From Thermococcus camini (GTDB lineage Archaea > Methanobacteriota_B > Thermococci > Thermococcales > Thermococcaceae), in NCBI RefSeq assembly GCF_904067545.1, contig NZ_LR881183.1:186001-250000 (forward strand): a DNA stretch of 64,000 nt. Reading direction: 5' to 3'. Shown piece by piece: positions 38,129-44,174 of the stretch (positions are counted from its first letter, which is position 1; each line of letters starts with the position of its first letter). Below the pieces are notes generated by a model. The model was given only the letters and a program-made list of their open reading frames with translations. It was not told where the DNA came from and did not search any database. Made by a program: the position numbers and the translations under genes.

Positions 38129-39930
<1,802 letters not shown>

Positions 39931-39996: not shown

Positions 39997-41238
39997 ATGC
40001 GAAGGTTTGTGGTTTTTGCAATGTTGCTCATTCTGTTGCAGGCCGTATCTGCTGGAGCTCTGGGATACAATTTAATAGGGCCCTCTCAGGAGGTGGCGGT
40101 TGCCTCGGGCGGTGAGAACTACTTGGTGGCCTGGGGGGACGATTCCTTCGTGAACGTTACCCTCGTTCGGGTGCTTGACAATTCCCCAATCAAAAACGTC
40201 AGCGTTGATTCAGTTGGGGGTGTTTACGTTCTGAATTCCAACAGAGTTCTCGATGTTTCTTCGCTTGTGGACGTGAACTTCGTGAGATACATCGTCGTCT
40301 GGAAGGCTAAGAACGACAGCTACATTTACTACCGCGTCCTCGATTCTGCCGGCGACTACGTGACCAGAACCAAGCGCCTCGATTCTGTCAAGCCTGACTA
40401 TCTGAGTGTCACCAGTGATGGTGAATATTTCGTCGTGGTGTATGAGGAGTACAACAGCAACCAGCTTTACTACGCGGTTCTCGATGCCTCTGGCAGCATC
40501 GTTGATAATGGACTTCTCTACACCGGGAAGGGCGCGATTCACTACAGCACAATAGCGTACGACCAGAAGAGCGGATACTTCGGGGTTGCGTTCAGGGAGA
40601 GCTGGAACAGTGGATCCAGCTACAACTTAACCTTTATCGACTTTAAACTCCTTTCAGATGGCGCCCTTAACTCGTCAAGCGTTCACCGCGCGAACTTCCT
40701 CGTGCGTGTATCTGCCGTGGCCGTTGCCCCTGGAATGGGCGGATTCTTCGTGGCGTACAGGAAGTACTACTCCCCCTATTCGTGGGTGATAATCGAGATA
40801 CCCGATCCTCAATCGCCCGGAACTTACAAGCAGGTGGCCGAGCTTCCCAGGGCCCAGGACTCCATCAGGGGCGATCTGGATCTCGTGCCCAACGAGACTT
40901 CCCCCTACCTGATCTTCGCCTATGAGAACCAGACTTCTGACTTGGTGTACGTGATCAGGCTGGTTAAGATAGGCCTGAACGGGGATATACTGGGAGACCT
41001 CTCCATAACGCCTTCCTCCGGGAACTTCAGGTATCCCTCCCTCGCGGTGTCCTCTGTAACTCCGGTTGAAGCCTACGCACTCGGGTGGCTTGAAACTGAT
41101 AACGGCCGCGCCCTGAGCGCGGAGTACAAGTCAGACCTCACGGCGGTCAGCGAGGTCAATCAGGTGCCGTTCTTCGGTACCCCCGCCGTGGCCGCCGCCC
41201 TCGTGGTGATTGCCTGGTTTGTGGCCAGGAGGTGGTGA
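39997..41238 (+). CDS. Surface protein with VPFFGTP C-terminal anchor
   Basis: The 413-residue protein begins with a signal peptide (MRRFVVFAMLLILLQAVSAG). Most of the rest is repeated beta-rich segments, such as VRYIVVWKAKNDSYIYYRVL and YFVVVYEEYNSNQLYYAVLD, resembling a beta-propeller. It ends with VPFFGTPAVAAALVVIAWFV and ARRW, a short motif, a membrane helix and basic residues, as in sorting or anchoring signals. ATG 39997 follows GGTGGTGTCA. No enzymatic motif is visible, so it is probably a cell-surface binding protein. Confidence 0.72.
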   Translation: MRRFVVFAMLLILLQAVSAGALGYNLIGPSQEVAVASGGENYLVAWGDDSFVNVTLVRVLDNSPIKNVSVDSVGGVYVLNSNRVLDVSSLVDVNFVRYIVVWKAKNDSYIYYRVLDSAGDYVTRTKRLDSVKPDYLSVTSDGEYFVVVYEEYNSNQLYYAVLDASGSIVDNGLLYTGKGAIHYSTIAYDQKSGYFGVAFRESWNSGSSYNLTFIDFKLLSDGALNSSSVHRANFLVRVSAVAVAPGMGGFFVAYRKYYSPYSWVIIEIPDPQSPGTYKQVAELPRAQDSIRGDLDLVPNETSPYLIFAYENQTSDLVYVIRLVKIGLNGDILGDLSITPSSGNFRYPSLAVSSVTPVEAYALGWLETDNGRALSAEYKSDLTAVSEVNQVPFFGTPAVAAALVVIAWFVARRW

Positions 41239-41342
41239 ATTTTCTACCTCCCTCCTTTTTGTTATGTTTGTCGCTCATAACCTAACCCCTTGCACTTCAA
41301 TACTTAAAAGTTAGGGCAACCAAATTAAAGTAGGTGGAGGAA

Positions 41343-42732
41343 GTGAAATCATCAGGGTCCATAATGCTCGGGCTGGTCGTTGGCCTTGCTCTGATGCTTG
41401 CACCCCTGCGGTCTCGGAAGCCGGAACTCAGTTCCTTCTCATGCCCCTATACGTTTATCCGGGCTGTTCATGGGACTCCATCATCAGCCTTAAGGCCCAG
41501 TACCCCGTGAACATCGTGGTTATAGCCAACCCTGCCAGCGGTCCGGGTTCCCAAAGGGATCCCGTTTACGCCGATTACATACAGAAGATGCGCGATGCGG
41601 GGATATCGGTTCTCGGCTACGTGTGGACCAACTACGGGAAGCGCGACTCCTCAATAATCGAGGACGAGATAGACAACTGGGCCTCCTGGTACAACATCAG
41701 CGGGATATTCTTCGATGGCGTGAACGTCTCGGCCGGTACTGAGGGGTACTACTCCGGCCTCGTGAACTACGTGAAGGGCAAGTCCCAGTCGTACCTCGTA
41801 GTTGGAAACCCCGGCGGCTACGATCCATCTACCCTCGCGGATTACACCTCGATCTTCGACGTCCTCGTGATATACGACAGCCCCAGCTACCCCTCCTCTT
41901 GGCCAAGCGGCGCCGATCCCTCGAAGCTGGGTGCTCTCGTGTACGGGGTGCCTTCCTTCGATGAGACCACCTTCAAGGATCTGGCATCTAAGGCGTACTA
42001 CGTGTACGTGACGGACGATGGAGGCGACAACCCGTGGGACAGCCTCTCCCGCTACGTGGCGGACGAGGCGGCCGCTCTGGCGGGGGTTCCCAAGGTGAAC
42101 TACGTCCTTAAGGTCAGCTCCCATAGCACCACGGGGTATTCCGTGATCGAGCGCTACCCCAGCTACAACGTTTCTGGAGGTGTATACAACGTCAGCTGGG
42201 ACGTTCTCTTGAGGAACTGGGACTCCTCCGGCGCTGGAGTGCAGCTGATGTACCTCATTCTTGACCAGGGTGGGAGCACCGTTGAGGTTCACTTCGAGTG
42301 GGCTTACTACGGAAACGGGACCGCTCTCTACGCCTGCTACGGATGGGCAAGCTGTGCTGACACTGATTTCAACGTCACCTCCTCCTGACACAGGCTGGCC
42401 ATAGCGGTTGATTCGGCGTCGGTTAAGTTCTACGTCGATGGGTTGAAGTCAGAAGCGTTGCCATCAGCGGGACGGCGGAGGTTCTCCGCGTGGGTGCCGG
42501 GTCGTGGGACAAAACATCGCAGTACGACCTCTACATAGACAACGTGACGGAGACAGCGGGGGTAGGAAGCGTCGTGGAGACTTTTGACTGTAGGAACGAA
42601 TGCTACTTCAGCACCCGCGTCGGGGACGTTGGCATCGTGCCGGCCAGTACAGTGGCTGTACCGTTCTTTGGCACTCCGACCATGGTGGCGATTCTGGCTG
42701 TGGTAGCGGCACTGCTGATGAGTCGTAGGTAG
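41343..42732 (+). pseudogene. Spherulin-4-like surface protein with lectin-like domain, three lesions
   Basis: GTG 41343 behind GGTGGAGGAA starts a signal peptide (MKSSGSIMLGLVVGLALMLA). A base is then missing from a C run at 41403-41406 before AVSEAGTQFLLMPLYVYPGC. The body is a TIM-barrel-like spherulation-specific family 4 domain (GYVWTNYGKRDSSIIEDEID, GIFFDGVNV), related to GH135-type glycan enzymes. A concanavalin-like lectin domain follows but is cut by TGA at 42386-42388 where homologous sequences have Trp (TGA-HRLAIAVDSASVKFYVDG). One G is missing from a G run at 42440-42442. The tail VPFFGTPTMVAILAVVAALL-MSRR matches the upstream surface protein. Confidence 0.65.
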
Positions 42733-42776
42733 AAAAGCGTTTAAGCCCTACCTCTCCCTTTTCTCAGGTGGTGGGA

Positions 42777-44174
42777 TTGAGGGTTGGAATCATCGGAAGC
42801 GGAGCCGCAGGCTTGACGGCAGCCATAGCCCTTGCGAGACGGGGCTTTGATGTCACTGTCATCGGAAAGGGGTTCAAAAACACTAACTCATACCTCGCCC
42901 AGGCGGGGATAGCCTTTCCAATCCTCGACGGTGATTCCCCTAAAGCCCACGTTCTAGACACTATCAGGGCAGGCAAGTACCTCAACGATGAAGAGGTTGT
43001 GTGGAGCGTAATCTCAAAGGCAAGCGGGGCCTACGACTTTTTGACTTCAATAGGCATCGAGTTCGAGACCAATGAGACCGAGGGCGGTCACTCCTTTCCC
43101 AGGGTCTTCACGATAAGGAACGAGACCGGAAAGCACATGATGAAGGTTCTCCACATGGCTGCTAAAGAGGCGGGAGTGCACTTCGTTGAGGGCTTCGCTG
43201 AAGAGCTCGCCGTGAGGGAGAGGAAGGCCTACGGCGTCTTTCTCGAAGGGGAGCTCATGAAGTTCGACGTGACTGTAATAGCGACGGGGGGCTTTGCGTC
43301 GCTCTTCCGGTACACCGCGGGCTCTCCTCTCAACCTCGGCACCCTCATAGGCGATGCCGTGATGAAAGGCGCCCCCACTCGCGATTTGGAGTTCGTCCAG
43401 TTCCACCCAACCGGCTACATCGGGAAAAGCGGCGTTTTCCTCGTCAGCGAGGCCGTCCGCGGGGCAGGGGCTAAGCTGGTGACTGAAGACGGGGAGCGCT
43501 TCGTTAACGAGCTCTCTACAAGGGACATCGTCGCGAGGGCGATATACAGGCAGATGCTCGCTGGGAAGAGGGTCTACCTCGACGCCACCTCGATAGAGGA
43601 CTTCAAGAAAAGCTTCCCCCAGATATACGCTTTTCTGGTCAAGGACGGCATCGACCCGTCGAAGGACTTGATTCCCGTCTCGCCAATAGCGCACTACACG
43701 ATAGGAGGGATAGCTGTTGACCTCTGGTACAAAACCGTTATCAAAAACCTCTACGCGGTAGGTGAAGCCATGAGCAACGGCTTCCACGGGGCGAACAGAC
43801 TGGCCAGCAACTCGCTCCTTGAGTGCATCGTGAGCGGTCTTGAGGTTGCGAGAACCATAGCTAGGGACAGGCCGAGGCGGGGAGAAGTCAAGGAGCCGGC
43901 ATATCACGGCTACGAGCTTGGAGACGTTGAGTCTCTAAGGCAACTTCTCTGGGAGAAAGCTGGAATCGTCAGGAGCGCGAAGACCCTTAAGGAAGGCCTC
44001 AGGGAGCTTGAGAGAATCGAGGCAGACCCGAGACTAAAGCTACTCGCGAGAGGGGTTCTCGAATGTGCCCTCGCGAGGGAAGAGAGCAGGGGGGCCCACT
44101 ACCGTGAGGACTTTCCAGCTACGAGAAAATCCTTCGAGAGGCCGAGCTTCTTCGACGGAAAGTGCAGGCTCTAA
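42777..44174 (+). CDS. nadB: L-aspartate oxidase
   Basis: This FAD enzyme oxidises aspartate to iminoaspartate, the first step of NAD synthesis. The 465-residue protein starts with the dinucleotide-binding VGIIGSGAAGLTAAIALARR, has NTNSYLAQAGIAFP, DLEFVQFHPTG and PIAHYTIGGIAVD, and ends with GEAMSNGFHGANRLASNSLL before a helical tail. TTG 42777 (MRVGIIGSG) was chosen because GGTGGTGGGA lies just upstream; GTGs at 42768 and 42771 are part of that site. It heads a run of NAD genes with nadA and nadC. Confidence 0.92.
   Translation: MRVGIIGSGAAGLTAAIALARRGFDVTVIGKGFKNTNSYLAQAGIAFPILDGDSPKAHVLDTIRAGKYLNDEEVVWSVISKASGAYDFLTSIGIEFETNETEGGHSFPRVFTIRNETGKHMMKVLHMAAKEAGVHFVEGFAEELAVRERKAYGVFLEGELMKFDVTVIATGGFASLFRYTAGSPLNLGTLIGDAVMKGAPTRDLEFVQFHPTGYIGKSGVFLVSEAVRGAGAKLVTEDGERFVNELSTRDIVARAIYRQMLAGKRVYLDATSIEDFKKSFPQIYAFLVKDGIDPSKDLIPVSPIAHYTIGGIAVDLWYKTVIKNLYAVGEAMSNGFHGANRLASNSLLECIVSGLEVARTIARDRPRRGEVKEPAYHGYELGDVESLRQLLWEKAGIVRSAKTLKEGLRELERIEADPRLKLLARGVLECALAREESRGAHYREDFPATRKSFERPSFFDGKCRL

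Follow-up and report, generated by a model that had tools for sequence, protein, structure and literature searches.

A VPFF-type C-terminal tail is very probably the sorting signal of an unnamed Thermococcus archaeosortase

In Haloferax volcanii, many unrelated exported proteins carry the tripartite PGF-CTERM signal that pairs with the archaeosortase ArtA, a polytopic Cys/Arg/His membrane enzyme for which both cleavage and lipid attachment have been demonstrated (PMC7157517, PMC4343526). For surface proteins of Thermococcales, the VARTIG motif DNNxxxGG was described as a putative and until then undescribed C-terminal sorting motif, for which no partner enzyme was found (PMC8416519). The window analyzed here, a stretch of 64,000 nucleotides from Thermococcus camini (contig NZ_LR881183.1, positions 186,001 to 250,000; genome G000 of our set), contains two neighboring genes that end in a C-terminal tail of the VPFF type. 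We consider it very probable that this tail is the C-terminal sorting signal of an unnamed Thermococcus archaeosortase, which would anchor the tailed proteins at the cell surface.

Gene 1 (39997..41238, + strand) encodes a secreted protein of 413 amino acids with an N-terminal signal peptide (MRRFVVFAMLLILLQAVSA, recognized by eye) and a VPFF-type tail, and its body matched no known family. The structure predicted from its single sequence consisted mostly of strands at a pLDDT of 45 and was uninformative. Homologues of gene 1 were detected in seven genomes, every one of which encodes the long archaeosortase described below; those from other Thermococcus have tails with VPFFGN or VPFFGG and bodies with 30-34% identity. 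Gene 2 (41343..42732, + strand) is broken and encodes a signal peptide, a Spherulin4 domain (PF12138, E 1.8e-38), a LamG-like domain and a VPFF-type tail. When compared with its intact orthologue from G016 (466 amino acids, Spherulin4 and a weak Laminin_G_3 match), gene 2 lacks one base near 41408 and another near 42443, and a TGA interrupts the frame at 42386-42388. The reading frame is open in the orthologues of G016 and G048 and broken in the window copy, whose VPFF tail is nonetheless intact. Since the substitutions between gene 2 and its G016 orthologue still fall mostly at third codon positions (39/27/88 by codon position), the breakage is either recent or a sequencing error, and the listed ORF of 80 amino acids represents what is left of the gene or a frame affected by sequencing errors.

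The two tails, both with 24 residues from the valine to the last residue, were VPFFGTP-AVAAALVVIAWFVA-RRW in gene 1 (41164..41235, + strand) and VPFFGTP-TMVAILAVVAALLM-SRR in gene 2 (42658..42729, + strand). In each, the heptapeptide leads into a run of hydrophobic residues (Kyte-Doolittle mean of about 2.7), and the protein terminates in RRW or SRR. Within the window, VPFFGTP was located by degenerate search at 41164-41184 and 42658-42678 of the + strand (two sites, 0.00 expected), and the 2.02-Mb genome of T. camini contained no sites beyond these two. The looser pattern [VILMF]PFFG occurred at nine sites in that genome, where motif-helix-RR ends were found at the two window tails only, the T. 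camini tails being counted by both pattern and profile searches. The gene 1 tail matched the tail profile with an E value of 3.1e-12, the same tail being also one of the profile seeds. In a BLASTP comparison of protein 1 with the intact protein 2 orthologue, the last 24 residues alone aligned significantly, and the bodies of the two proteins are, by this sequence comparison, unrelated, as the sequence-only reading of the window had claimed. That reading had also described both neighbors as ending in VPFFGTP, a helix and an RR-containing end; this ending is indeed encoded at both sites, but one of the genes is broken and the proposed heptapeptide was too long.

The conserved motif, as judged from the tails collected, is VPFF[G/S] and excludes "TP", because the G016 orthologue of gene 2 has VPFFGSS and because G or S comes after VPFF in homologues and in the other carriers. 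The orthologue of gene 2 in G048 has VPFFGSA, and the motif of gene 1 is identical in its G016 orthologue. The exact heptapeptide was rejected as the motif, being present only in T. camini, in G016 and at one further site in G081, probably by chance, where no tail-bearing frame was seen. Among 36 tails from sortase-bearing genomes, 16 have VPFFS and 14 VPFFG, the remainder being one motif residue off, and the distance from the valine to the end is exactly 24 residues in 25/36 and 28 in 7/36, a uniformity that is partly due to selection because the tails were gathered with motif filters and the profile. The tail is carried by unrelated bodies, namely GH57/CBM53/Glucodextran_C (amylopullulanase-like), subtilase S8, papain-like C1, LTD (lamin-tail), Spherulin4 with LamG, and gene 1, and T. 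camini alone has three carriers with unrelated bodies (genes 1 and 2 and a 305-residue protein encoded beside the archaeosortase). The tail is thus not limited to the two window genes, a restriction that would have counted against a sorting signal, and occurs on many unrelated carriers in Thermococcus. The homologues of the GH57 protein, like those of gene 1, were all found in sortase-bearing genomes.

The VPFF tails have the tripartite layout of C-terminal sorting signals (CTERM), with a motif, a hydrophobic helix and basic residues at the very C-terminus, and no model of NCBIfam (June 2026) or Pfam names them. When 19 tails were compared with CTERM models, the best match was to GC_trans_RRR, of the MYXO-CTERM type (E 4e-5), with six matching tails, all of them without the MYXO-CTERM cysteine; best E values were 0.1 for PEF, 0.4 for PGF and 0.03 for GlyGly, and VPXXXP was not among the matches listed. 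None of the 19 tails scanned combined a match to the family tail model with the family motif for PGF-, VPXXXP-, PEF-, GlyGly- or MYXO-CTERM, in line with the earlier view that the motif differs from the PGF, VPxxxP and PEF types. In a literature search covering work other than the original survey by Haft et al. (2012), no use of VPFF as a sorting motif was found.

Genes 1 and 2 occupy an insertion site bordered on the left by guaB (IMP dehydrogenase; 38470..39930, + strand), identified from sequence with one match per genome, and on the right by a nadB-like gene (42768..44174, + strand), named L-aspartate oxidase-like from sequence resemblance. Most sortase-less relatives in which the two border genes adjoin have 38-79 bp between them, among them G036 and G071 (61 bp), whose guaB identity to T. 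camini is 97%. The gap holds genes with VPFF-type tails in five sortase-bearing genomes (G000, G016, G033, G044 and, with APFFG, G031); in G026 the enzyme is present and the gap is empty (41 bp), and some genomes carry other genes there. The sortase-less G043, G062 and G054 (loci L213, L219 and L204) have an unrelated gene for 551-557 amino acids at this site or at the downstream side of guaB, suggesting that the site accepts various cargo.

Searching Thermococcales with a generic archaeosortase model returned two main types, ArtF (about 170-187 amino acids) and a longer type of ~270 amino acids (about 260-285 from the likely start). The T. camini copy of the long type (G000:C1 174131-174937, minus strand) lies about 53 kb from genes 1 and 2 and 11 kb left of the window, beside the gene for the 305-residue protein, whose tail has VPFFS, and matched the general model over the cut-off (E 8.1e-15). 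Three long archaeosortases scored 48.8-55.5 bits against TIGR04178 (cut-off 23), and the G016 enzyme scored 67.7 bits against PF09721 (cut-off 25.7). Cys174 (in GxGCSG), Arg218 (in NAxRI) and His238 and His240 (in LFHSHxGD) are invariant in 13 long archaeosortases. With three members scanned, no cut-off of a named NCBIfam archaeosortase subfamily was reached, the best being ArtC with 46-50 of 100 bits and the other subfamilies scoring lower or being absent from the matches listed, and these profile scores place the long archaeosortase within the superfamily and outside every named subfamily. An AF2 model from three sequences consisted mostly of long helices but was too weak (pLDDT 58) to be informative; Foldseek with this model returned no PDB match at E <= 0.001, and the PDB contained no sequence relative. 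A search of 115 genomes of the phylum found the enzyme in none outside Thermococcus, and a wider contig search returned Thermococcus MAGs and one 28% cyanobacterial match. Conserved genes near the archaeosortase at one locus (L052:6960-15516) encode Big_3_5/DUF4129, DUF4350, MoxR-type AAA_3 and DUF58 proteins, with a DUF1616 protein beyond the target; the conserved genes beside the enzyme are possible functional partners.

The long archaeosortase was intact in 13 of the 94 Thermococcales genomes, damaged in G014 and not found in the others. The tail profile was built from 19 seed tails picked with a motif filter, many from sortase-bearing genomes; it favors such genomes because it was seeded largely from them, and the test is not blind, although matches elsewhere were still free to appear. 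Over the 94 genomes, E values below 1e-7 were obtained in G000, G016, G018, G019, G026, G031, G033, G042, G044, G048, G058, G067 and G072, plus G061, several of the matching tails being profile seeds themselves. Strong VPFF tails were thus present in 13/13 genomes with an intact sortase and in 1/81 of the others (Fisher 5e-15, phylogeny ignored). To allow for the relatedness of the genomes, the sortase was mapped on a guaB tree covering 61 genomes (one gene, quick method), where its label changes 10 times, with at least 8 of the changes on supported branches. Of 8 independent pairs, an average of 7.8 showed the tail following the enzyme, and none showed the opposite (sign test p 0.008, or p 0.016 with weak tails counted).

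Eleven of the 13 intact-sortase loci have one to three VPFF-tailed genes within the examined stretch, which measured at most 19 kb; these genes usually adjoin the sortase gene and converge on it. The remaining two loci (L061 and L062) are on short contigs with no VPFF gene. Strong tails were also found outside the sortase locus in seven genomes (53 kb away in T. camini, on different contigs in G048 and G058), and the sortase-unlinked tails taken separately were associated with the sortase (Fisher 1.3e-6, phylogeny ignored). In 6/13 genomes strong tails are on near-sortase genes only, so that there co-occurrence is expected from joint transfer alone. In G014, the archaeosortase has lost its 3' end, and its convergent VPFFS target the helix, through a deletion that fused the two genes at their 3' ends (L083 / L064); no other strong VPFF tail is left in the genome. 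The sequence-only reading had proposed an undescribed archaeosortase-type signal and a correlation of such tails with a membrane protease across Thermococcales; the correlation with the long archaeosortase, the at least eight independent changes, the unlinked tails and the adjacency all argue for that proposal at the level of genome comparison.

Related tails were also detected in four sortase-less genomes with a completeness of 73-94%, namely G061 (VPLFS), G055 (VPFFGG and VPLFS), G050 (VPFFRS and VPLFS) and G063 (VPTFS), which limits any claim that the tail depends strictly on the enzyme. On the guaB tree, G055 and G050 form a sister pair in which neither genome has a detected enzyme, which indicates that tails can exist without it and makes enzyme loss with decaying tails as likely as missing data. 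Tails departing from VPFF[GS] made up 5/6 of those in sortase-less genomes versus 6/36 in sortase-bearing ones, albeit in small numbers, and papain-like proteins have VPxFS tails both with and without the sortase.

ArtF served as a specificity control and does not track the VPFF tails, being present without them in G014, G032, G080 and G081 and absent from eight genomes that have them; it was rejected as the VPFF partner on this distribution. Its neighbor genes end in VPEFPFL, and in other Thermococcus and related genomes (L037, L028, L018, L019, L020, L039 and L041) the adjoining genes end in VPEF-PFL-[EK], a tail that may be the signal of ArtF. Some ArtF neighbors (L146-L149) have matches to the C-terminal half of gene 2, which is LamG-like. 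Another small archaeosortase-like protein is encoded beside genes with APIP-helix-basic tails in G087 and G090 (L030 and L032).

A hydrophobic helix and basic terminal residues would suffice to hold a protein in the membrane, and the VPFF tail could be an ordinary single-pass transmembrane anchor, left uncut, with VPFF as a helix-capping or interface motif. The persistence of related tails in the four sortase-less genomes agrees with such an anchor, but these tails mostly depart from VPFF[GS], in the small numbers given above, and a plain anchor needs neither a conserved motif at fixed spacing on unrelated bodies nor co-gain, co-loss and adjacency with one membrane enzyme, which leaves this explanation improbable. 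We regard as less probable still that a mobile package of surface genes carries VPFF genes and archaeosortase together with the enzyme not acting on the tail. The sporadic distribution, the convergent adjacency, the use of the guaB-nadB site and the restriction of gene 1 and GH57 homologues to sortase-bearing genomes are compatible with a package of this kind; against it, the carriers have the tail and not the body in common, and the strong tails outside the sortase locus in seven genomes also track the sortase.

Processing of the tail by a different protease, either rhombosortase/rhomboid-like or ArtF, appears very unlikely from the survey of archaeosortases, since the resemblance of the layout to GlyGly-CTERM and MYXO-CTERM and the weak matches to those models are explicable by the helix and RRR alone, whereas the distribution of ArtF does not follow the tail and that of the long archaeosortase does, across at least eight changes. 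Least likely of all, to the point of being nearly negligible, is that genes 1 and 2 came to share one anchor by recent duplication or conversion, which the same heptapeptide in adjacent genes might suggest and which the earlier reading had named as a result that would speak against a signal. The tail-coding DNA of the two genes is only 55% identical over 75 nt, each of the four bases that differ among the 20 of the motif is the third of its codon, the helices differ, and the G016 orthologues of the two genes carry VPFFGTP and VPFFGSS; a recent duplication was rejected on this DNA divergence. The tail architecture, the unrelated carriers, the adjacency, the co-gain and co-loss with the enzyme and the active-site residues, all read from the genomes, point instead to a sorting signal of the long archaeosortase.

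As such a signal, here termed VPFF-CTERM, the tail would consist of V-P-F-F-[G/S], about 14-18 hydrophobic residues and an R-R end. Proteins 1 and 2 would be exported via a Sec-type signal peptide, after which the C-terminal helix would keep them in the membrane. The archaeosortase would then recognize VPFF[G/S], cut at or near the motif with its invariant cysteine and pass the new C-terminus to a membrane lipid, so that the protein would become lipid-anchored on the cell surface. Cleavage and lipid transfer by the long archaeosortase are proposed by analogy with H. volcanii ArtA.

Whether the unnamed subfamily and its signal form an exchangeable surface-display module of Thermococcus seems to us evenly balanced; in such a module, enzyme and cargo (GH57 amylopullulanase-like proteins, proteases, lectin-like and spherulin-4 proteins) would be gained and lost together, cargo would also reside at guaB-nadB, and tails would decay after enzyme loss. 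The repeated gain and loss with cargo would provide natural experiments on how a sorting enzyme and the proteins it acts on evolve together. The candidate signal can now be assigned to an archaeosortase outside all curated subfamilies, giving a putative enzyme-substrate pair that could be tested in hyperthermophiles, some of which are genetically tractable. The assignment bears on how extracellular enzymes of Thermococcus, such as amylopullulanase-like proteins and proteases, may be fixed at the surface at high temperature, and database curators could name a tail that currently has no NCBIfam or Pfam model.

Compared with the systems already described, the VPFF[G/S] tail and the long archaeosortase are best read as a new pair of enzyme and signal that belongs to the archaeosortase/CTERM kind already known. 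The likeness to ArtA/PGF-CTERM lies in the motif-helix-basic end on unrelated exported proteins and in the Cys/Arg/His enzyme. The differences are VPFF[GS] in place of PGF and an enzyme found in some Thermococcus only; ArtA was not among the families matched by the long archaeosortase, and cleavage with lipid attachment is a feature of ArtA that is extended here by analogy. Archaeosortase C (TIGR03762) with PEF-CTERM (TIGR03024) is the nearest named family by profile score, although the long archaeosortase reaches half of its curated cut-off and the PEF-CTERM model matches 1/19 tails. ArtF (TIGR04293) belongs to the same superfamily, occurs in the same genus and also adjoins a gene with a candidate tail, but differs in its smaller size, in the VPEFPFL... 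tail of its neighbor and in its phylogenetic distribution. The VARTIG DNNxxxGG motif differs in sequence and layout, being placed after the hydrophobic region, and for VPFF, unlike for VARTIG, a probable partner enzyme has been found.
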